Below are positions 19,632-37,391 of a DNA stretch of 43,245 nucleotides, one piece after another. The notes under the pieces are model-generated. The model saw nothing but the letters and a program-made list of their open reading frames with translations. It made no database searches and was not told where the DNA came from. Within the stretch, counting starts at the first letter, position 1, and each line of letters begins with the position of its first letter. The DNA comes from Candidatus Absconditabacterales bacterium (lineage in GTDB: Bacteria; Patescibacteriota; Gracilibacteria; Absconditabacterales; Absconditicoccaceae): the NCBI GenBank assembly GCA_937958645.1, contig CALGNI010000008.1, positions 1-43,245 on the forward strand, written 5' to 3'. A program made the translations under genes and the position numbers.

Positions 19632-20528
19632 TTAATACAATTTAACCAACTCTCTTTCAATCCAGTTTATTACATATTTCTTCATCTTATCGTCATAAGT
19701 AAGTCATGAACTAGGAATATCTTCTCTCGCATCTTTGATTTTCTTCATTCATTCAATAATAATTGTCTGTCTTTTTGGTGAATCAGCAAGGTCACTTAGG
19801 ATATCAGACATCCTATACTTATATAGATAAGGAACAAGAACTTCATTATTTTCTATCATTTTACCTCTCAAAATCCATCTTCCTTTGAGTCACTCAGTAC
19901 AAGCGAATACTGTCAATTCTTTTCCTCACTTTGGTTTCAATATTCATACATCATCTGGAGTAGTCTCATATGATTCCTCTATGGTAAACTTGCGAAGTTC
20001 GTATTCACCATCTTCCTTAGCAAACACCCGCATTTCATCTCTTGGGCTCACATCTAGATTCATAAGATCTGCAAAAATACTTTTGTATTTCCCTTCCTCT
20101 TTAGCAAAATAATTACTATGACCAAAGATAACAGGATTAGCAACTTCTCAAGGCATTCAGGTCCCTGGATAATGCATCACTCCCTCAGGGAGATATTTAT
20201 TGATATCAATTTCTTTCCCTGTTGTCATATTTTTATAATCAGTAGTTCCTTCTGGAACAAATACAACAGGAGTGATTAATCACAAAGTAGGAAGCACGAC
20301 ATACATGTCATCACTTCTGTCTTCCTTATACGGAAGAATCGATGTCCAATATTCAACATCTTCAGAAGCATTTTCTAATGCAACTGGTTCAAACCAAGTT
20401 GGTGACTGCCACTCTAATGCATCTGACTCTATAGTAACTACTCATTTTTGTGCCTTTGGTGTCAAAGCAAATGAACTACCAGATACCAACATAATACTAA
20501 GAGTAACACAAAGTACTTTCTTCATCAT
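19632..20528 (-). CDS. Sortase family transpeptidase, copy 1
   Basis: 298 aa with an N-terminal signal peptide (MMKKVLCVTLSIMLVSGSSFA). The sortase core includes LGLITPVVFVPEG, the catalytic His in PVIFGHSNYF, the catalytic Cys in LTVFACTEG, and the candidate catalytic Arg eight residues later (GRW). The usual TLxTC is replaced by VFACTEG, so it belongs to an atypical class. About 125 residues follow the Arg, including an acidic/basic C-terminal helical tail. It is 40 bases downstream of a second sortase. The LPETG protein encoded upstream is its likely substrate. Confidence 0.85.
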
Positions 20529-20568: not shown

Positions 20569-21519
20569 TTACTCTGGGAAGATTGATACAAGTTTAAATT
20601 CAACATAATCTAACAACAAAGCTTCTGCATCAGTCAATGATGATCATTTTGCTGTTCTAATATTTCCAATTACTTTTATGAGCTGAACGATTTCAAATTT
20701 CTTAGCATTAGTTTTGAGCCAACCAATTTTCCTTACTGCTGAATCTACTCTTGCTCTAAGACCTCTATTTAATGAAGCGTAAGGATCTACGTAAGGAACA
20801 GGTTTTCCATTTGGCTCTCCAATATAGCTTGCCAAGATCATCCATCTACCATCCAAACCATGAGTACAACCAAACACAAGTGCATCTGCTCCTTCTCAAT
20901 CCCATTGAAGATACTTAACTCATGTTGTAGGATCAATATTGAACGATTGATCTACATTATACTTAAATAGATCAAATGCTCATGAACTTGTTTTTTGGAA
21001 ATACCATACCTGATCGCCTGGATCTAATGCCATGAGACTAGCAAAAATTGTTTTGTATCTCCCCGCTTGATCTTTGAAGAAGTTACTATGACCAAAATCA
21101 ACACGCTTACCCCAGTTCCCAGGAGGAACACTACTTGCGTATTCAATGATTCCTCACACAAGATATTTATTGATGTCAATTTGATTTCAGCTTCTCATCA
21201 ATTCATAATCAGCAGATCAATCTGGAATTTCAACAATAGGAGTTATAAGCCCTAACTGAGGAATCACCATATAAAGATCTTCATATCTATCTTCTTCATA
21301 AGGTAATACTGAATTGATCCAATATCCAGCATCTGTCGGTGCAGATGAAAGACTATGTGGTTGAAACCATGTAGGTGGAGTCCAAGTCAAACTCGGTGAC
21401 TCATAAAATAAATCACCATAAATAGCTTCTTTTGCCGCTATATCACTTAAACCAAAAGCGGTTCACATCAATGCAAATACAGAAAAAACTCAGATTCATA
21501 CACGAATATTATTAATCAT
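20569..21519 (-). CDS. Sortase family transpeptidase, copy 2
   Basis: 316 aa with an N-terminal hydrophobic signal (VGIGVFSVFALMGTAFG). His lies in RVDFGHSNFF and Cys in ALVFGCTHG, with Arg eight residues downstream (GRW), the same unusual active-site context as copy 1. It shares the architecture and segments such as QIDINKYL and LITPIVEIP with copy 1, so the two are paralogues. UGA encodes several Gly. It follows a membrane protein on the same strand. Confidence 0.85.
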
Positions 21520-21681: not shown

Positions 21682-22638
21682 TTAAGGACTTTGTGATCAT
21701 AGCGCAATTTGCCTTTTCTCCTCACAACCTCGCTTCATAAGTCATTTCGATTGAGCTTCCAACCAAAAATCATTGATAATTGATTCAGAATTCCAATCTA
21801 TATCCCATCATTGGGCTAATCACAGCAAGACAAAAAGGTTTCAGCATTTCACTGTTAGTGACGGATCGATGCCTACTCAAATCATTCACATCTCAAGCCC
21901 ATATGCAAATCATGGATATAATACACTCTCCTTACTTATATACGAAAAATCTTCACTTTGTGACCTAAATTCACCATCATAAAGATCTCGAAGAATTGGG
22001 ATTAGTGCTTGATAGGTGATTTCTTCGTTTTCTGAAAAATATTTTGCTAAAATTCTCTCGTACTTATCTTCATCTTGTTTTTGATCTAAAAGCTCTTGAT
22101 CAAGAACTCATGGTTTTGAATCAATTAAGGATGCAATATTAATATTTTGTCTGGGTTCGTTTACTTTTCAAGTTTTATAAGAAGCATTAACAAAAGTTTC
22201 GTAAACATACGAACCTGTACTGAATAAAAAAACTAAGCCAATTCATATGATTGTATTTTTTAGAAATGTTCAATTACTGACTCTTTTATATCGAACAGAT
22301 GTACTTGAGACGGTTTTTGATCAGATTCATATACCCAAAAAGACACATAATATTATTGCATAAATAAGTCTCATACTCGTAGGTAAATCAATGAAAAGAG
22401 CAAGAAAGGATAGTATAATCCATGATCAGAAAATTCAGAGCAAGAGCACATTAAACACAGACGCCTTTGGTCTCAAGGTCTTATAATATTTTATGAACAC
22501 TCACAAAATAATTACAAAATGAAAAAGAAGAAGAGTGAATATAAGAGGTTCGTCATAAGATCAGGTAAACAAGGAAAATAATGAAAAGCTACCTAATCAA
22601 AGGATGATCAATAAGCTGAATAAGTGATGGTGATTCAT
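21682..22638 (-). CDS. Multi-span membrane protein with soluble C-terminal domain, 318 aa
   Basis: Four or five hydrophobic helices in the first ~150 residues (for example FTLLLFHFVIILGVFI), then a soluble region of ~165 residues with an acidic helical stretch (QELLDQKQDEDKYERI). No family recognised. It lies between the DUF1616-like gene and the sortases on the same strand, so a role in surface-protein export or anchoring is a reasonable but unproven guess. Confidence 0.65.
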
Positions 22639-22847
22639 GATAGTATGCAAGCTAAAATGAACTTTCTTATTCGTTTTTTTTAATATTACAGTCAATTAAT
22701 GGGAAAAATCTATTACAGAAAAATAATTGAATTAACTATTTACTGCGTTTATCTATTATACTATATTAATTAACAACAAAAAAACAACAAATCTCGTTTG
22801 TCGTCTTAGTATATGAAAAGTCAAATAACTAGTTACTTATAAAAAGT

Positions 22848-23243
22848 TTAGACAATATCATTATCAATTGGCAATGAGCTTGGAACTCAATTTCTCCAGC
22901 GAATTAGAGCTAAAATTGCTGCAAAAGACAAAATCACTATGCTAATAAGATAGATTTTAATCGTAGAAATACTGTTAGAGGTAAAATACAAATAATATGA
23001 TATAATTATAATCAAAGTAATCGATATCAAAAAATTAATTGCAAATCTTTCAAATGCAGATAAATCTTGTTCACTAAAGAAAAGATATCATATCCAATAT
23101 CATGGAAGATAAAAAAGAATCAAAGATCAACAAACAATTCGTAAGATCTCAAATACCATTCAATCTTGTGGGAAAAGCATTAGCAAAAGCAAAATCAGCA
23201 AGATAATTTGCGTAAAGAAAACTGAACTTAATGTATAACGCAT
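22848..23243 (-). CDS. DUF1616-like small membrane protein, 131 aa
   Basis: Four predicted helices. The segment LILFYLPGYWIGYLFF followed by SAFERFAINFLISI resembles the PGY...ER...S pattern of DUF1616 membrane proteins, found near surface-glycan and secretion genes. It is shorter than typical DUF1616 members. It is downstream of the giant surface protein and upstream of the sortases on the same strand. The family call is tentative. Confidence 0.55.
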
Positions 23244-23494: not shown

Positions 23495-26400
23495 TTATGC
23501 CTTATTTTCTTCTTCTTTCCTAATAAGTAAAGTCGGCATTGATACTCTTCATTTAAGAAGCCCACCATTTAGTACTCAAGTTTCTGGAAGATAAGCAGGT
23601 AATTGAAGTGGTTCTGGCATAGGAACCTGCTCATATCTTGGTTGAGGGATAAATGGTAGTTCAATCTCAACTGGTTCTGGCTCTTGTATGATCACGACAG
23701 GTGTTGGTGTTGGTTCAACTATTGGAGTTGGAATTTCAATATAACAGTTACTACTGCATCCATCACCATTAATAGTATTACCATCATCACACTGTTCTTT
23801 TATAGTAGGATCACCATTGTGTCAGATGATTCCATCTCCACATCGACTTTCAATTTGACATACTTCTGGATCTTCTTCAACAGGATCTACTACAGTTTCA
23901 AGTTGACAATTCCTACTACATCCGTCTCCATCAACATAATTTCCGTCATCACACTGCTCTCCTCTAGTAACACTCAGGTTTCCATCTCCGCAGAAGTTTC
24001 TTCCTCATCCACTTCCTCATCAACCTCTACCTGATCTTCTTAATACCTCGATATTCTCTACATCATGATCATCTTCATCATTGGATGAATTATTAATTAC
24101 ATCATCAACAACTACATCATTTGATGATGAACTATCTACAGTACTATCAACGTCGTTACCGTCATCTCTTGTTATTTCTGCAATATTTTCAACATCACCA
24201 ACGAATGAAGAACTAATCGTAAAGGTGATAGTTTCTGATTCACTATCTCAAGCTACTATCGATCCGAAATCAAGAACGATTTCATCATCAGTTTCTGAAA
24301 CTACAGACGCAGATGAACTAACATAAGTAAGTCCATTAGGAATATAATCAGTTACTTCAATAGAACTAGCATCAATATCTCATTGATTAAATACTGTGAT
24401 CGTGTAGATAACTTGACCACCTTGAACAAAAGTACTTGAATTAGATGTTTTTCTCAAAGCAAGATCATAGTCATTAGATCCTGTAGTAGGATTTGTTACA
24501 ACTATAGTCTCAACATCATGATCATCCTCGTCATTACTTGCATTATTAAGTTCGTCATCAATAAGTATGTCATTTGCACTATTTGTATCAGGTGTACTAT
24601 CTACATCTTCACCATTATCAGCACTAATTTCTGCTATATTATCGATAGTTCCCGTAAATCATGCATTTACTGTAAAGGTAATAGTTTCAACCATATTAGT
24701 TCATGCAACGAGTGATCCATAATCCAATACTACAGTAGTTGCATTATTAGAGATCACTGGAGCAGTACTACTAGCGAATGTCAATCCTGTAGGAATATAA
24801 TCAATTACTTCGATTCCTGCAGCATCTTCTGTTCCTTGGTTATATACTGTAACATCAAAGGTCACCGTGTCTCCTGGATTGAATGTTCAGGTTGTTGAGC
24901 TATTTAGTCCCTTAGTTAAAGCAAGATCAAATTCCATAGTTTCTGGATCTATAACAGTAATAAGTGCATTATCATCATCATCTTCATCTTGACTTCAATC
25001 TCCTGGTGTACTATCTACATCAACTCCATCATCTGTATAAATTTCTGACCAGTTTTCAATCACTCAAGTAAATCAGTCATCAATGATGAAGCTAATTGTT
25101 TCTGTCTCACTTCAACCAACAGTAATTGGTGAGAAATTAAGTGTAACATCTCCATTTGCCAATACTTGATATCAATTAGATCATACTGATGAACTTAAGA
25201 ATGTAAGTCCTGTTGGAACATAGTCTATTACATAGACATCCAAAGCGTTTTCATTTGATTCATTCAGAACCGTTAAGTCGAATGTAACCGTATCTCCTGA
25301 CTCAAATGGACCTGTTGTACTAGAATTCAACACTTTCATCAATGCTAAATCGTAAGAAGTACCTCCACATTGTTCGTCAAAAAAACCATCACAGTCATTA
25401 TCTAATCCATCTTCACATATTTCATTACCTGGTGTTCATTCTACTGCGCTACATGATCCTAATTCATATTTACCATTTATACAAGCCTTCGGCTGTGTTC
25501 CTGTCGCAAGACACTCACCTTGACCAGCAGAACAATCTACTACCTCATCAGTTCCTTCGTCAATTTCACCATCGCAATCATTATCAATTCCATCACAGAT
25601 TTCTGCTCCTGTATCAACACATACTACTTGTGTAACAGTAATTGATTCGATATCATGATCATCTTCATCACCACCGTTATTATTAATAACATCGTTTAGC
25701 AATGTATCATTAGATGGATCTGAATCAGTTGTACTATCGATATCTGCTCCATTATCTGCAGTAATTTCTGCTATATTATCTAAAGCAGTTCCTGTAAAGC
25801 TAGAGTCAATAATAAAAGTAATAGTTTCAGTTCTTGAAGCTCAAACTGCTAATGAACCAAAATCTAATGAAACTTCAGTAGATGAGGTAGAAACAGTATT
25901 TAAGCTACTTGAATCAAATACCAATCAAGCTGGAATATAGTCAGTCACCACAATCCCATTTGCATTTAGATCTCCTTGATTAATTACCGTAATATCAAAC
26001 GTAACTGAGCTTGAAGGAGCAAATGTACTTGAATTGCTCGCATTAAGTGTTTTTTGAAGAGCTAGATCAAATTCATCAGTATTTGTTGTGTCATCGATAA
26101 TAGTAATAGTTTCTCAATCATCATCATCTTCATTTGTACTATCATTTCCTTCAGTACTATCAGTATCATTTCCATTGTCAGTAAGTACTTCTGCCAAGTT
26201 CGTGATAGACATTCAAATAAATCCTCCATTTACTCTCATCGTAACTGTTTCAGTTGATGATGATCAAGCTGGAATATTTGCAAAGTCAATAATTACATCC
26301 GTTCAACTTTGAGTATACGTTGAAGAAGAGTCTACAAATGTAAATCCTGCTGGGACATAGTCAATTACAGTAAACGCTCCTGAAGGAACATTACCTTCAT

Positions 26401-29400
26401 TAGTTACAGTTATTGCAAATTCAACATCTTGTCCAGTAATATATGGTCCACTTGTTACGATATCTTTAACCAACGCTAGATCATATGTTGTTGGATTCAC
26501 TGTTTCAATAATAATATTTGCATTATCATGATCATCTTCATCTCATCATGTGTTATCAATAACATTGTTGATCAAAACATCATTATTCACAAGCGTATCA
26601 GTAACACTATCAACATCATTTCCATCATCAGATGAAATTTCTGCGATATTTTCAATCGTACCGTTCGCTCCTGCATCTACTGTAAAGGTAATAGTTTCTA
26701 AAACATTACCATTAACTGGGATAGTTGTAAATCATAAAGTAACATCTGTAGAAGTTACTGCTATTTCAGTCGCAGAAGTACTTACATACGTAAGACCAGC
26801 AGGAATATAGTCAGTTACTTCAACATTATTTGCGGCAACAGATCACTGGTTTATTACTCTTATATTAAACGTTACTGTATCTCCTGGAGCATATGTAGAT
26901 GTCATTCTTGTTTTTCTCAATGCTAGGTCATAAGTATCTGTAGTTACATCGATCGCAATTGTTTCATCGTCATCATCATCTTCATTTGTACTATTATCAC
27001 CCGGTGTGCTATCTGTATCGTTACCATTATCAGTCATTACTTCAGCATTATTTGTAATACTTGATCCTGTAAATCCTGCATCTATAAGCATGCTAACAGT
27101 AATTGTAGCAGACCCTCAAACTTGAATTGATGGATAGTCTAACACGAGATCAGATCATACTAAAGTATATGATGCTGCATTAGTTCAAGCAAAACTAAAT
27201 CCTGCTGGGATATAATCAACCACAGTAAATGTACCAGATGGTACAGTTCCTTCATTAGTAACGGTTATATCAAAATCAACAACATCTCCTGGTGCGTAAG
27301 GTCCTGCAGTAGCAATATCCTTAGACAAAGCAAGATCATACACTGGATTGATTGGATCAATAATCGTTATAATTGCATTATCATGATCATCTTCATCTCA
27401 ACCAGTATTATCAATTACATTGTTAACAAGCACATCATTTGATATGTTTGTGTCAGTAGTACTATCAATATCATTCCCATCATCAGATGAAATTTCTGCT
27501 TTATTATCAATCGTTCCTGTGAAATTATTATCAACAGTAAAGGTGATAGTTTCAAGCACTGATCCTCCAACTGGAATCATTGGGAATCATAACGTAGCAG
27601 TTGTTGCTGTAGTAGCAATTTCTGTTGCTGAAGTACTTACATACGTAAGTCCAGCTGGAATATAATCAGTTACTTCAACATTATTGGCATTAACCACTCC
27701 TTGATTGAATACTCTAATATTGAACGTTACTGTATCTCCTGGAGCATATGTAGCTGCCATTCTTGTTTTTCTCAAAGCAAGATCATATCCATTTGGCACA
27801 ACAATTGGGTCAACAATAATTGACTCGATATCATGATCATCTTCATCACCTCCGGTATTATTTATTACATTATCCACCAATACATCATTGGTTGAATCTG
27901 TATCTGTTGTACTATCAATATCTGCTCCATCATCAGCAGTAATTTCTGCTAAATTATCTATTGTTCCTGAGAATCCTGCATCAATTGTAAATGTAATAAC
28001 ATGACCTTTTGAACCTGGTGCAATAGTACCAAAGTCTAATTCTACAAAATTTGCTGTAGATGAAATCACTGATGCATTACTTGACACAAAAGTCAATCAA
28101 CTAGGAATATAATCTGTTACTACAACATTGTTAGCAGTCACTGTACCTTGGTTGAATACTCTTATATCAAATGTAACTGTATCTCAAGCTGTAAATGGAC
28201 CTTGAGTAGTATGATGCAATATTTTTCTCAATGCTAGATCATATGTATCTACTACAATTATAGGATCAACTACGATACTTTCGATATCATGATCATCTTC
28301 ATCACCTCCATTATTATTTATTACATTATCTACCAATACATCATTGGTTGAATCTGTATCTGTTGTACTATCTACATCGTTTCCATCATCAGCTATAATT
28401 TCTGCTAAGTTATCAATCGTTCCTGAGAATCCTGCATCAATTGTAAATGTAATAGTTCTTGTCTTAGCAGCTCATGCTGCGATTGAACCAAAGTCCATCG
28501 TTACGCTTGTCGCTGTATTTGCAATTGCTGCATTACTACTTACATAGGTCAATCCTGCTGGTATATAATCCATTACTTGGATACCACTAGCATCAATATC
28601 ACCTTGATTAATTACTCTCACATTGAAGGTAACCGTATCTCCAGCCATAAATGGTCCTGGAGTGTTACTATTTAGTATCTTTCTCAAAGCAAGATCATAT
28701 TCATCAGTTGATACAATCGGACCAACTACAATACTTTCGATATCATGATCATCTTCGTCACCTCCATTATTATTTATTACATTATCTACCAATACATCAT
28801 TGGTTGAATCTGTATCTGTTGTACTATCTACATCGTTTCCATCATCAGCTATAATTTCTGCTAAGTTATCAATCGTTCCTGAGAATCCACTATCAATAGT
28901 AAACGTAATAGTTCTTGTCTTAGCAGCTCATGCTGCGATTGAACCAAAGTCCATCGTTACGCTTGTCGCTGTATTTGCAATTGCTGCATTACTACTTACA
29001 TAGGTCAATCCTGCTGGTATATAGTCCATTACTTGGATACCATTTGCATCAATATCACCTTGATTAATTACTCTCACATTGAAGGTAACCGTATCTCCTG
29101 CCATAAATGGTCCTGGAGTGTTACTATTTAGTGTCTTTCTCAAAGCAAGATCATATTCATCAGTAGATATAATTGGATCAACCGTAATTGATTCAATATC
29201 ATGATCATCTTCGTCACCTGCATTATTATTGATTACATCATTTACCAATATATCATTAGATGAGTTTGTATCTGTTGTACTATCTACATCGTCTCCATTA
29301 TCTGATGAGATTTCAGCGAGATTATCAATCGTTCCTGAGAATCCACTATCAATAGTGAATGTAATAGTTCTTACTTTTGAACTTCATGCAAGAACAGCTC

Positions 29401-31150
29401 CAAAATCAAGGTCTACTGAAGTTGCAGTAGTTGAAATTGTTGTTGCATTACTTGATACGAAAGTCAATCCTGTAGGAATATAGTCAGTTACTACAATGTT
29501 TGCAGCATCAACGTCACCTTGGTTAAATACTCTTATATTGAAAGTAACCGTATCACCAGCCATAAATGGTCCTGGAGTAGTTCCGCTCAATGTTTTTCTC
29601 AAAGCTAGATCGTATGTATCAACTGGACAAGCTACTTCATCAATATCTCCATCACAGTCATTATCAATTCCATCATCACAGATTTCTGCACTAGGAGTTC
29701 ATTCAACTGCATTACATGCATATGTTGATGGTTGACCATCTTCGCATATTTTTCATCTAGTACCAGTAGCAGCACAAGCCCCTACTCAAACTGTACATTC
29801 TTGTACTATATCAAGATCTTCATCTATTTCATCATCACAGTCATTGTCAATTCCATCACATATTTCTGGTGTTGAAACACAAAGACCTCATCAACCACAT
29901 GGATCAGGAACAGAACAAGAAGAAGCTGATCCTCCATTAGTTCAACTACAAGTCCAGGTGTCAGCTATATTACAGGCCGTTTGATTATAATTTCATGCAG
30001 TACCATTCGTACAAGAACCAAAGACTACGCCACAAGTTCCATCAGTTCCACTACATAGATCTGGGTTTGAACAAGAAGCAGTTGCTCCTCAACCTGAACC
30101 CGTACATGACCATGTATCAGCCTGATTACATGCAGTATCATTTACCCCAACTGCAAATCATAAAGTACAGGTTCCTGTAGCAGTACCACAAACTCAAGGA
30201 ATTGGATTTCCTCCTCCACAAGAATCGTTATGAGCACAAAAAGCAGTTGTACCACCATTTGATCATACACATTCCCATGTATCATTTTCTGTACATACGG
30301 TGTCATTAATATTATTTGCTGTACCTGTATCACATTGTCCAACCGTAAGTCCACAATCACCATTTACTGGTGTAGGTGAACATACATCTGGAATCATACA
30401 CCATGCATCAGTTCATCCATTCGTGCCGAAACAATCCCATGTGTCATCTTGACCACATGCTGTATCATTTGGATTTCCAAAATTTCATGCAGTACAAGAT
30501 CCAAAAGTAGAACCACAAACAGCATTAGTTGGAGTTGTTGTACAAACATCTGGCACTGAACATGAATCACTTGATCCTCCATTAGAGCCTTCACAAGTCC
30601 ATGTATCATCAGTTCCACATGCTGAATCATTTCGATTAGCAGCTTGACCGGTTACACATACTCCATATGCATTTCCACAATCTCCATTTACTGGTGGAGT
30701 TGCACAAACATCTGGAATCATACACCAAGCATCAGCTCAACCATTTACACCAAAACAATCCCATGTATCATCTTGACCACACGCAGTATCGTTAGGGTTT
30801 CCTGGATTACCGACAGAACATGATAAGAATCATGATCCACATACAGCATCAATAGGTGCTGATCCAGAACATACTGGAAATCCACTTGAATCATCACAAG
30901 TTTCTCAAGCAGCACACGCAAGTGGATTGCTACAGAGTCAATTAGAATTACAGACATCTGAGGTACATACAATACCATCACTACAATCTGCATTAGTCAC
31001 GCACTCATCTCATGCGTAAACTGTTTGAACTGAATTTGTATTCCCGTAGTTATCAGAAGTCGTATCTGACATCAAAGGAATAACTCTAAACGCATCTACA
31101 AAAAGCATAGCTGCTAGTACGATACGTAAGAATGTGTTTGCACTTTTCAT
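23495..31150 (-). CDS. Giant DUF11-repeat surface protein with LPETG sorting motif, 2551 aa
   Basis: A continuous frame with UGA as Gly. Order: signal segment (residues ~8-22); Cys-rich modules with repeats like GQDDTWDC (~40-440); two motifs of the [16 protein letters not shown] kind (MopE-like, probably Ca-binding); then twelve DUF11-type repeats, each opening with YDLAL or FDLAL (~513-2350). A further MopE-like pair lies between repeats near 25370-25620. After a Gly-rich linker come two CDDGN...GDGCS..C repeats (~2370-2470), a Pro/Glu stalk, and LPETG at 2521-2525. The last 26 residues lack a clear membrane helix. Likely a cell-surface adhesin or stalk processed by the downstream sortases. 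Confidence 0.92.
28260..29171 (-). repeat. Near-identical tandem 456-bp DUF11 units
   Basis: Two adjacent repeat units inside the surface-protein gene, each 152 codons, differ at only a few positions over most of their length. The other DUF11 units are clearly more divergent, so this duplication is recent. Confidence 0.85.
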
Positions 31151-33445: not shown

Positions 33446-34114
33446 ATGAAAGCTTTACCATTAGTACTTATTGGATTAGTATTGAGTGGCTGCTGATCAG
33501 CAGCACCTAAAGTTACGACTCCTGTCCAAGAAATAATCGAACAACAGATACCCACTATCCATGCGCTAGGTGATAGCCTTACGGCTGGGTATCAACTTCC
33601 CATACAAGATTCTTACCCTTCGCAACTTGAAAAGATCCTTAGGGACAAATGAAGAGAGATCAAAGTACTTAACGGCGGAATCTCTTGAGATACTAGCGAA
33701 GGACTAAAGAAAAGAATTGATCGACAGCTAGAAACTGCAGCTGAGAATGATATTGCAATCTTAGTCATCTGAGCGAATGACGGGCTTCGTGGTTTACCTC
33801 TAGGGCAGCTGGAAGAAAATATAGCAAGCATTACGAAAACAATTCTCGATAAGAATATGCACCTGATAATCTGATGAATGAAAATACCGCTAAATAATGA
33901 TCCTCAGTACAGAGCTGATTTTGAAAAAATCTACAGTGATGTATGTATCACTTATCAAGACAACAAGAAAGTATCCTGTATGGAGTTCTTCTTGGAAGAC
34001 GTATGATGAATCGCAAATCTAAATCTCCCCGATGGCATCCATCCCACCAAACAATGATACAGCATCATTGTAAATAACTTATTACCGCTAGTAAACGACA
34101 TCTTGGAGAAGTAG
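33446..34114 (+). CDS. TesA-like SGNH-hydrolase lipoprotein (arylesterase/lysophospholipase family)
   Basis: 222 aa. A lipoprotein signal (LPLVLIGLVLSGC, Cys at residue 16) puts it outside the membrane. The SGNH blocks are all present: GDSLTAGY (Ser, block I), GGISGDTSEG (Gly, block II), GANDGLRG (Asn, block III) and DGIHPTKQGY (Asp/His, block V). The order matches the TesA/arylesterase branch, which hydrolyses esters and thioesters of fatty acids. UGA encodes the residue after the lipobox Cys and several block glycines. The ABC transporter genes follow 62 bases downstream. Confidence 0.93.
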
Positions 34115-34857: not shown

Positions 34858-34940
34858 ACCGTCATCCTGAACGAAGTGAAGGATCTCGTGTGGCCCGAAA
34901 CCTCTCGAGATCCTTCGGTCGTCCCTCCCTCAGGATGACG
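34858..34940. repeat. GTCATCCTGA...TCAGGATGAC palindromic repeat
   Basis: An inverted repeat with arms GTCATCCTGAACGAAGTGAA and GGATCTCG, mirrored as CGAGATCC and CCTCAGGATGAC. Sequences of this kind are common intergenic palindromes in many bacterial genomes. Here it separates the ATPase and permease genes, and its right arm contains the permease ATG (34935). Confidence 0.75.
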
Positions 34941-37391
34941 CCCCATAATTACCTCTTTATTGCCTATCTCTTCATGCTAGCAAAATCCCTCTTCCGTAAA
35001 TCCAAAAAGTCACTACTTCTGATTGCAGCACTGATCATGGCATCGGTGTTGATCTCTTTCGTGTTGAAACGAGCGGGTGAGATCGTGAGTCAGGAAATAG
35101 ATGCGGAGATAGCGCCTAGTGTCTGATGAGATATCGTGATTCAATGAACAAGACCACTTGACGACAGGAGCGTAGCAGCTATCAAAGAACTTGTATCAGC
35201 TAGCAAGTGACGTTTCTCACAAAAAGTTGAGATGAACTACACCCTCATCACTCCAGAATGACCCTTATTGAGTACTCTTCGATGAATAGATGATGCATAT
35301 CCTCTGTATGGGGAATTTGAGTGAAACACCGATAGATGATGAACAGGAGCAAACACCGTGTCTCTTTCGAAAGCCTTATATGAAACATACCAAGCTTGAT
35401 CTGAAGACTGATCATTTTCAAGTATCTCCCTACAATCACAAGATTTTCAAATCAGCTCAAGTTTCGACTCCTCTCCTGGCGCATCGTTTAGTGTGTTTGA
35501 TGGAGGAAGAACCGTCGTGTTAGCTTTGGATCGTGTAGAAGAACTAGGTCTGCTGGCACAATGAACAAGAGTATCTCATATAACAGCACTTACCCTGCCA
35601 GATAAAAAATCAATTCCCGTCTTCAAGACTATCATCAAAAACATCGTAGCAGATACACCCAATCGTGTAACAAGCATCGACGAAAGCGAATGAGTCTTCC
35701 AGTGAGTAGGAGAATCCTTGCAATGATATCTCTCGCTGATTAGTCTCTTGTTTCTCCTCCTACAAACATGCGTATTAATCTTCTTGGGATCACGTATCGT
35801 GCATGAAAATCAAGACTCCTTACAGATCATGAGAATCTATGGACTACAAGATAGCAAGATACGACGACAATCACTACTCTGGATCACCTGAAGTGCTGCG
35901 TTATGAGTATGATTATGAATAGCCATAACCTACGGATTGACTCATTATCTCACCGCCACTGATCGACTTTCTTCTAGTATCTGGGTACTCACTCCTTACA
36001 TACCCACCGTGATAGGAACGGCATTGTTAGCGATCTGAGTAAGTGCCTTACCGATCTGGCTCAGCGTGAGAAAGTGACCACTTTCCTTACTTGATAGTAG
36101 CCCAACACCACTTTCTAGACTCCTCTCATGGAAATGGATACTCGCCTTAGCTCTCGTGATCTTAGGATCGTATCGATTGATCATTGGTGACCTTGGTACA
36201 GCATGATTACATCTAGGTCTGGTTTCTTTGTTAGCGTTGTTGGTAGGAGTATTTGTCCGATGAATCCATAAGGGATCATTTATTGCTGGAACCAAAGCAG
36301 GACGAAGAGAAAAAAGCTTTGAAAAGCGAGACGTGCTGAGATTCTTGACCAAACCAGGGACACAGAGTAGCTTGATCACTGGATTGTGCACAATCTTGAT
36401 GATCTTGTTGAGCTGGGTAGTAATGACCTATGGATGACTGCAGGCAAGATTACAATGACTCACTGCTTGATGAGATTCGATCTTCGTGACCAATGTCTTC
36501 GATGATGATGTAGAAAAAATCGATCAATTATCATTCCCTATAGAAAGCGTCTTCGATGTGATCCTAGGAAGAATCGTGAGTATCAATCAGACATCAATGC
36601 AAGATCGGCTAGATCAGCAATTCAACGGGTCACCGCAGCAAAGATGATTCACTAGAGAGTTCAATATGACCTCAAACCCGCTGGATGATGTAAAAATCGT
36701 ATCAGGGAAAGCATTAAGCAAAGAAGGAGAGGTGTCTGTCGATGAAGACTTTGCCAATGACCTGGGCTTAGCAATCTGAGATACGCTCACAATTTCTCTC
36801 GCAGGGAGAGAATTCGATCTCACCGTAATAAACCTAAGATCCTCAGTAAGAGATGGCGTTCGTCCCTTCTTCTATCTGCAGTTATTCTCAGAGCAATTCA
36901 AGGAAGCACCAAAAACTTCTTTCTTTCAAATTACCGCAGCACCAGAAGAAAAGACTAGCATAAAATCGGAAATCACTACCCTGATGGGAAACAATATCTC
37001 TTATATCGACACAGGAGAGATCATCCAAGAAGTGAAAAGCTATATTAGTCGTATCGAAAAACTACTCATTTTCTTGTTTTGACTCATGCTCATCTATGCG
37101 CTAGGAGCCATCTTCTCACTATTTCGTTATGCAGGGATTTTTCAGAAAGAGAGATTTGATGTGTATGAACTCGTCTGAGCAGCAAAAGAAGCTATCAAAA
37201 AAATCAAAGCAGGATACATAAGCATCTACCTCTTGATCTCATCAGCGCTTACCTTCGTATCATTCTTCGCATTCTCAGCAATTTTCGCCAATAGTACGAT
37301 ACTTGAGGTCTCTATCGAGATTTTGTGACTCTGAGCTCTTGCGGTGTTGTTTGTGGTGGGGTTGGTGTGGTTTTGATTGGGGAGAAAGTAA
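34935..37391 (+). CDS. FtsX/MacB-family ABC transporter permease, 818 aa
   Basis: The frame is continuous with UGA as Gly. A membrane helix near residue 20-40 (SLLLIAALIMASVLISFVL) is followed by an extracytoplasmic domain. A first FtsX-type bundle (~260-450, for example LSLISLLFLLLQTCVLIFLG) is followed by a second helix pair and soluble domain (~480-690) and a C-terminal bundle (~695-815). The duplicated layout fits the long MacB/LolC-E-like permeases. The ATG at 34935 lies in the palindromic repeat; GTG at 34890 is an alternative but would be translated through the repeat. The TesA-like lipoprotein is upstream in the same cluster. Confidence 0.88.

Follow-up and report, generated by a model that had tools for sequence, protein, structure and literature searches.

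We analyzed a 43,245-nucleotide contig from a Candidatus Absconditabacterales bacterium (CALGNI010000008.1, assembly GCA_937958645.1; hereafter the window), in which the gene for a giant protein ending in the sortase motif LPETG lies near two sortase genes that we name SrtB and SrtA (Table 1). The window is contig C8 of its genome (G000; related genomes carry other G numbers), whose assembly totals 1,552,395 bases. Translation follows code 25, in which TGA encodes glycine, throughout; the giant open reading frame (ORF) contains 56 TGA codons and stops at TAA. From its N-terminus, the encoded protein comprises an export signal, which by eye would be cleaved after VYA, a cysteine-rich region, MopE motifs, the DUF11 repeats, a DUF4215 domain, and LPETG followed by 26 residues. 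A Lys, Asp and Asn triad is described for isopeptide-forming CLIPPER (DUF11) domains (PMC12617251); we located this triad by residue pattern in 12/12 repeats, for which an isopeptide bond is predicted. The sequence is best read as a fibrillar adhesin-like surface protein with 12 isopeptide-type stalk domains and a sortase signal that lacks the usual membrane helix (a “tail-less” signal).

Table 1. Features at the giant-protein locus; positions are those of the window.
Feature	Position	Strand	Basis and remarks
Giant surface protein, 2551 aa, code 25	23495..31150	-	ORF translation; Pfam: DUF11 (12 stretches), MopE metal-binding, DUF4215
N-terminal export signal, residues 1-46	31013..31150	-	Sole hydrophobic segment is residues 6-28
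12 DUF11 (CLIPPER) repeats, residues 513-2343	24122..29614	-	Pfam and residue pattern
LPETG, residues 2521-2525	23576..23590	-	DNA and translation; Gly is a TGA codon
26-residue tail without membrane helix	23498..23575	-	Translation and Kyte-Doolittle hydropathy
Small multi-helix membrane protein (DUF1616)	22848..23243	-	Pfam; same cluster in G001, G002, G003, G004, G012
337-aa membrane protein, C-terminal domain without Pfam match	21682..22695	-	In the cluster of G002, G003, G004, G012; not in the G001 contig
SrtB-type sortase	20569..21519	-	Signal-peptide-like N-terminus, no other helix
SrtA-type sortase	19632..20528	-	Signal-peptide-like N-terminus, no C-terminal membrane helix; His137, Cys210, Arg217

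The initial annotation had pointed out that no clear hydrophobic segment follows LPETG, and hydropathy analysis agrees: within the tail, the 19-residue Kyte-Doolittle mean peaks at 0.69, versus 2.27 in the tail of a canonical signal from another genus of the family (G029). The latter signal consists of FPKTG, a helix and charges, and 0.3 kb after it comes a sortase that has an N-terminal helix. The giant protein’s tail ends in RKEEENKA, a sequence of mixed charge, and several of the other short tails described below are without any positive residue. The glycine of LPETG, which sits at the scissile bond, is itself encoded by a reassigned TGA codon (23576-23578), and under the standard code the protein would appear to end in LPET. 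A frameshift concealing a longer hydrophobic tail, which had been named as an alternative, fails on two counts: both other frames run into TAA at most about 12 codons from the motif (checked by hand), and the orthologue in G003 has a similar tail (VVNNGLIKGRLGLITYLLRKEEELS). Conservation of the motif itself is partial. LPETG is found in G000 and G003 and LPQTG in G012, giving LPxTG in 3/5 genomes, and in the other two the proline is replaced (LQKTG in G001, LQATG in G002).

We compared LPxTG-encoding DNA patterns with reversed control patterns across genomes. In these patterns x was N, K, E, D, Q or H only, so that counts are lower bounds, and the patterns also tolerate F in place of L and either C or W in place of G. 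The window’s own genome contains 37 LPxTG matches versus 18 for the reversed pattern; for LPxTGA the counts are 13 versus 0, and all 13 matches sit at most 11 codons from a stop. On these counts, together with the stop-linked patterns below, we reject a chance LPETG. We examined 33 of the 37 matches (all except C99:6366, C100:2195, C103:15389 and C105:1937), and judged 15 to fit, one to be undecided, one to be internal (L012) and 16 to be chance-like, having short frames, long tails, or a motif that contains F or C. The undecided match, L031, reads LPETG plus LSHGK after a 334-codon open frame and was left uncounted. Inspection of the matched loci also turned up two additional signals, LPATG and LPSTG.

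In total, we identified the giant protein and 16 others that end in LPxTG with 1-13 residues after the motif (1, 1, 2, 3, 3, 3, 3, 4, 4, 4, 4, 5, 7, 9, 11 and 13). In thirteen of these 16 ORFs, LP also occurs four residues ahead of the motif (LDLPTILPNTGAEIK is an example). Most of the 16 have no known sortase neighbor. The unusual sorting signal proposed for the giant protein is thus supported, as a genome-wide pattern of helix-less LPxTG ends. Our tabulation of tails, here and in relatives, omits L031 and one plus-strand match in the window that looks antisense-like by eye, and a G001 LQGTG entry is the same ORF as its LPQTGAGL entry. On contig C66 of the same genome (L193, L223), a further divergent sortase, which has a long extension at its C-terminus, is encoded near a DUF4215-like protein ending in LPSTG plus 13 residues, and G003 holds a similar pair.

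Tail-less ends recur within the genus. LPxTGA matches outnumber reversed ones in G003 (11 versus 0), G001 (4 versus 0) and G002 (4 versus 0), with 0 versus 1 in G004; 3/4 of the G001 matches and 2/4 of those in G002 fit on inspection. Among the 11 in G003, L103 is internal, L104 and C1:82724 (FPHTG) are chance-like, one follows an open frame of just 25 codons, two represent a single sequence present on two contigs, and in one the motif is followed by a moderately hydrophobic tail of 24 residues (15-residue Kyte-Doolittle mean 1.59). LPxTG followed by three codons and a stop occurs 16 times in the five genus genomes, against 2 control matches, and 10 versus 22 times in the other 44 family genomes; with four codons, the counts are 10 versus 0 and 10 versus 35. 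Of the 26 genus matches to these two patterns, which include one pair of near-duplicate G002 contigs, 24 lie in plausible ORFs, one (in G002) is at a contig edge and one, LPKTGALL in G003, follows a frame open for just 25 codons. In the search of relatives suggested by the initial annotation, the ending is enriched in the genus and does not rise above control in the rest of the family, where G012 (LPNTGATVE) gives the sole convincing match. Short-tail LPxTG ends were tabulated for G003 (13), G002 (7), G001 (6, from 5 distinct ORFs), G012 (2) and G014 (1). G004 has no match to LPxTGA or to the stop-linked patterns, and one of its proteins ends in TPKTGSAL. At G003:C3:191180-191636 (L255, L267, L277), three successive short-tail ends read LPDTGSY, LPETGGDIS and LPKTGALL; the 25-codon frame of the third perhaps marks a broken gene.

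The C-terminal LPxTG is also kept in four sets of orthologues (from 4, 4, 3 and 2 genomes), in two of which the region before the motif can hardly be aligned. Each member of these two sets has a single membrane helix, located centrally or in the first half of the ORF, which would place the C-terminus outside the cell if the N-terminus is inside. This pair of families, found in four genomes (L009, L261, L108, L270), thus combines a single helix with a short-tail signal, and its members are candidate membrane-wall tethers.

The window’s genome contains three matches to the sortase family PF04203 plus the weaker SrtB. Against a cut-off of 26.6 bits, SrtA scores 44.9 and SrtB 20.8, yet SrtB is 38% identical to SrtA. 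H137, C210 and R217 of SrtA are invariant in 10/10 aligned rows, including both window enzymes and two of the fusion proteins described below, and we take these residues to be the sortase catalytic triad. All 50 listed PDB matches of a SrtA structure model (predicted local distance difference test, pLDDT, 78.5; predicted template modeling score, pTM, 0.65) are sortases, at low query coverage (TMq about 0.4). The best PDB sequence match to our sortase profile is Clostridium perfringens sortase D5 (4d70; E 3.3e-16), to which the SrtA model adds three predicted C-terminal helices (residues 234-297). This profile matched one of 379 phylum genomes at E<=1e-38, the window’s own, and 12/49 family genomes at E<=1e-20, one of which, G025, is a member of the membrane-anchored class (same place as L117).

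Across 12 SrtA and SrtB enzymes, the N-terminus holds an uncharged run of 16-24 residues, after which, by eye, A or G precedes an aligned LT, LS, IS or IT in 12/12. Neither window enzyme has another membrane segment at a 19-residue Kyte-Doolittle mean of 1.6. Anchored sortases, also by eye, have an N-terminal helix and then a juxtamembrane stretch without an A/G-type site. These features would fit enzymes that are exported, lose their signal peptide and are not membrane-anchored. In a tree of 46 sortases, 11 anchored family sortases form one group (support 100/99), and 31 SrtA, SrtB, SrtC, fused and related rows are split from the anchored and four class-level rows with support of 94/94, just short of the tool’s 95 mark; the N-termini of SrtC and some related rows could not be called.

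The initial annotation had connected the giant protein with the two sortases nearby, and conserved gene order supports this link. Two genes separate the giant gene from the sortases in the window, and the grouping of giant C-terminus, DUF1616 protein, SrtB and SrtA recurs in G001, G002, G003 and G012. Orthologues of SrtA and SrtB also occur in G004, whose contig starts at the DUF1616 gene, such that any giant gene would be cut off. A radical-SAM gene is next in the cluster of G003, G004 and G012. The 337-residue membrane protein, present in five genomes including the window’s own, may be a partner or acceptor.

The link is further supported by LPxTG-sortase fusions in relatives: six single ORFs, plus a degenerate seventh, join surface-protein sequence via L[PA]xTG directly to a sortase of the SrtA/SrtB clade. 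They span five genera, including the window’s own. Their junctions are LPQTG-TPILQR (G008), LPRTG-TPISER (G002), LARTG-TPIDLL (G015), LPKTG-PEETSQ (G046), LPATG-PDEDYA (G011:C6) and LPVTG-PDEAMI (G011:C32), with HPGMG-TP in the degenerate case (G011:C10), and the Pfam Sortase family is matched over cut-off in 6/6 non-degenerate fusions. In these six, we saw no further export signal separating the motif from the enzyme: over the 70 residues after the motif, the 15-residue Kyte-Doolittle mean peaks at 0.31-1.17 in four, and at 1.63 and 1.91 in the other two, where by eye the peak coincides with the first core strand of the sortase domain. Five of these fusions are incomplete on the 5′ side, at contig or stretch limits, and the G002 fusion on the 3′ side as well; the G008 fusion is complete, with an export signal seen by eye. 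Of the nine PF04203 matches in G011, three are fused to surface-protein sequence. The stretch from LPVTG to the catalytic His in G011:C32 is free of TGA codons, so this fusion is independent of the genetic code; with the use of TGA as glycine throughout, this led us to reject a recoding artifact.

Overall, we favor a model, to which we assign a probability of about 0.68, in which Absconditabacterales use exported, unanchored sortases, acting in trans or fused to their substrates, to join fully exported proteins with tail-less signals to an acceptor in the envelope. The giant protein would be exported through Sec and, since it has no C-terminal stop-transfer helix, would leave the translocon completely. 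An exported, unanchored sortase, such as the nearby SrtA or SrtB, would then recognize LPxTG at the extreme C-terminus, form a thioester at the threonine and drop the short tail, and pass the protein to an envelope amine, which might belong to peptidoglycan or to a pilus-like or membrane-tethered partner. The same signal would serve 16 or more further proteins of the genome. In relatives, the fused sortase would occupy the place of the usual membrane helix, with the chain itself providing proximity. With substrate and enzyme both fully exported, a helix that parks the substrate beside a membrane sortase would be unnecessary. The directly observed basis of this model is the motif, the missing helix, their recurrence in genome and genus, conservation in orthologue sets, the catalytic triad, gene order and the fusions; from these we infer Sec export, cleavage of the sortase signals, enzyme-substrate pairing, the transpeptidation chemistry and the acceptor.

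Several observations weigh against this model. The giant protein’s motif is LQ[AK]TG in two orthologues, and its 26-residue tail is longer than the 1-13 residues of the other signal proteins. G004 has both sortases and zero LPxTGA matches. The uncharged runs of SrtA and SrtB overlap the range of lengths seen in 11 anchored enzymes (12-21 residues), such that uncleaved anchoring is compatible with them, and the genome’s own membrane-anchored sortase (G000:C51) may be the real enzyme. The family for classical signals, PF00746, gave no match at cut-off in the genus (best E 0.076, and 0.59 in the window’s genome), but reached cut-off in only 2/118 genomes, neither of this genus, making it a weak detector in the class whose silence in the genus says little; at a loose threshold it rang in 13/14 control genomes, and is hence neither sensitive nor specific here. 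The first fusion, in G008, came from an unbiased PF04203 search, but the others were found or recognized with a profile of the SrtA/SrtB clade, and fusions to other sortases may have been missed. In an AlphaFold2 model of a fusion fragment, the LPQTG stretch has a pLDDT below 50 and no confident placement, and is uninformative on a reaction in cis. Finally, G000 and G003 each carry one LPxTG inside a long surface ORF rather than at its end: LPNTG in L012 (G000:C22:6732-9745) and LPQTG in L103 (G003:C14:40200-43250), each in mid-ORF and followed by a Gly-rich linker and further domains. Since homology between these ORFs spans the junction (33% identity over 1017 columns), they appear to represent a conserved tandem polyprotein architecture joined by LPxTG, and not a single mis-assembly.

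The fusions also invite a bolder and tentative idea, which we consider unlikely as a whole: that transpeptidation here is extracellular and membrane-free, with giant proteins bearing a cis sortase behind LPxTG that would, once exported, cleave themselves to a thioester and ligate to neighbors or the wall, and that this arrangement split in the window’s genus to give a tail-less substrate plus a pair of exported sortases that later came to serve the whole tail-less repertoire. On the sortase tree, the fusion label needs three changes, still compatible with one origin, and it is possible that an ancestral fusion split into the window’s separate substrate and sortases. A less probable explanation is that the anchored sortase of G000:C51 recognizes the tail-less motif and the cluster sortases do another job, such as polymerizing subunits. 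An anchored sortase is indeed present in G000-G003, and in streptococci a sortase described as transmembrane handles the three-residue tail of AbpA (PMC4974636). However, PF04203 is matched in 28/30 family genomes sampled and the 11 anchored enzymes come from eight genera, whereas short tails are enriched only in this genus, and all fusions seen belong to the other clade (subject to the search bias above).

Two further readings dispense with attachment or with function altogether. If the motif were a release or processing site, a sortase or other protease would trim the end and the protein would be shed or matured without covalent attachment; the lack of a retention helix would fit, as would the occurrence of AbpA in culture supernatant as well (PMC4974636). 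We regard this as improbable: a protein without an anchor is already free, and its shedding needs no conserved C-terminal motif, and the motif is likewise present at the C-terminus in the two orthologue sets whose members have one internal membrane helix. That these are vestigial classical signals, relics left after loss of their helices, would fit the giant orthologues, whose tails vaguely resemble shortened helices with charged ends (G001: VFSGGVSLLSLMARREER) and two of which have LQKTG or LQATG. Yet four orthologue sets retain the motif at the very end of the chain, and within a single genome it recurs in 16 other ORFs, 13 of which have LP four residues ahead of it. We give this reading the lowest probability of the alternatives.

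The kind of signal proposed in our favored model is already known. Its closest precedent, built on the same principle, is AbpA of oral streptococci, which ends in LPKTS-AVK and is reported to be anchored to the wall by the neighboring SrtB, as demonstrated experimentally; green fluorescent protein carrying the AbpA end was found in the wall fraction and the supernatant (PMC4974636). Both cases combine an LPxT-type motif and C-terminal residues after it with, in streptococci, an accessory sortase encoded alongside. They differ in that AbpA and SrtB are one protein family and one sortase, whereas one genome here encodes at least 17 proteins; in the motif (LPxTG, not LPKTS); in the signal-peptide-like N-termini of the sortases; in the LPxTG-sortase fusions of relatives; and, for the giant protein, in the 26 residues after the motif in place of three. 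With the classical LPXTG signal (PF00746), the system shares the motif, the sortase fold and the catalytic residues, but not the hydrophobic helix or a PF00746 match over cut-off in the genus.

Tandem DUF11 stalks and giant size liken the window’s protein to DUF11 (CLIPPER) fibrillar adhesins and to the giants of Vampirococcus lugosii, whose giant membrane proteins, some with DUF11, are discussed among Absconditabacteria in a paper whose main text, as far as available, does not contain the word sortase (PMC8080830). A Gracilibacteria genome paper (mBio 2019) mentions sortase once in its accessible part (PMC6851277), and a survey of the Candidate Phyla Radiation (CPR) lists a sortase family in over half of CPR (PMC6744442). 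In a literature search of partial coverage we found nothing besides AbpA on sortase-substrate fusions, on Absconditabacter* with sortase, or on tail-less signals in candidate phyla; within that coverage, the scale of the repertoire, the apparently unanchored enzymes and the fusions may be without earlier description.

Genome searches for sortase substrates seek LPxTG with a helix and charges, and PF00746 at cut-off missed the set described here. If our model is correct, the helix would be dispensable on the scale of a whole repertoire, and a system thought to require membrane anchors may operate without them in tiny, mostly uncultured bacteria. The model would also offer a testable answer to how ultra-small bacteria keep giant adhesins on their surface, and the fusions would be natural single-chain sortase-substrate proteins for study. 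Visual inspection of ORFs elsewhere in the window suggests an SGNH-hydrolase-like lipoprotein at 33446-34114 and an FtsX-like permease at 34890-37391.

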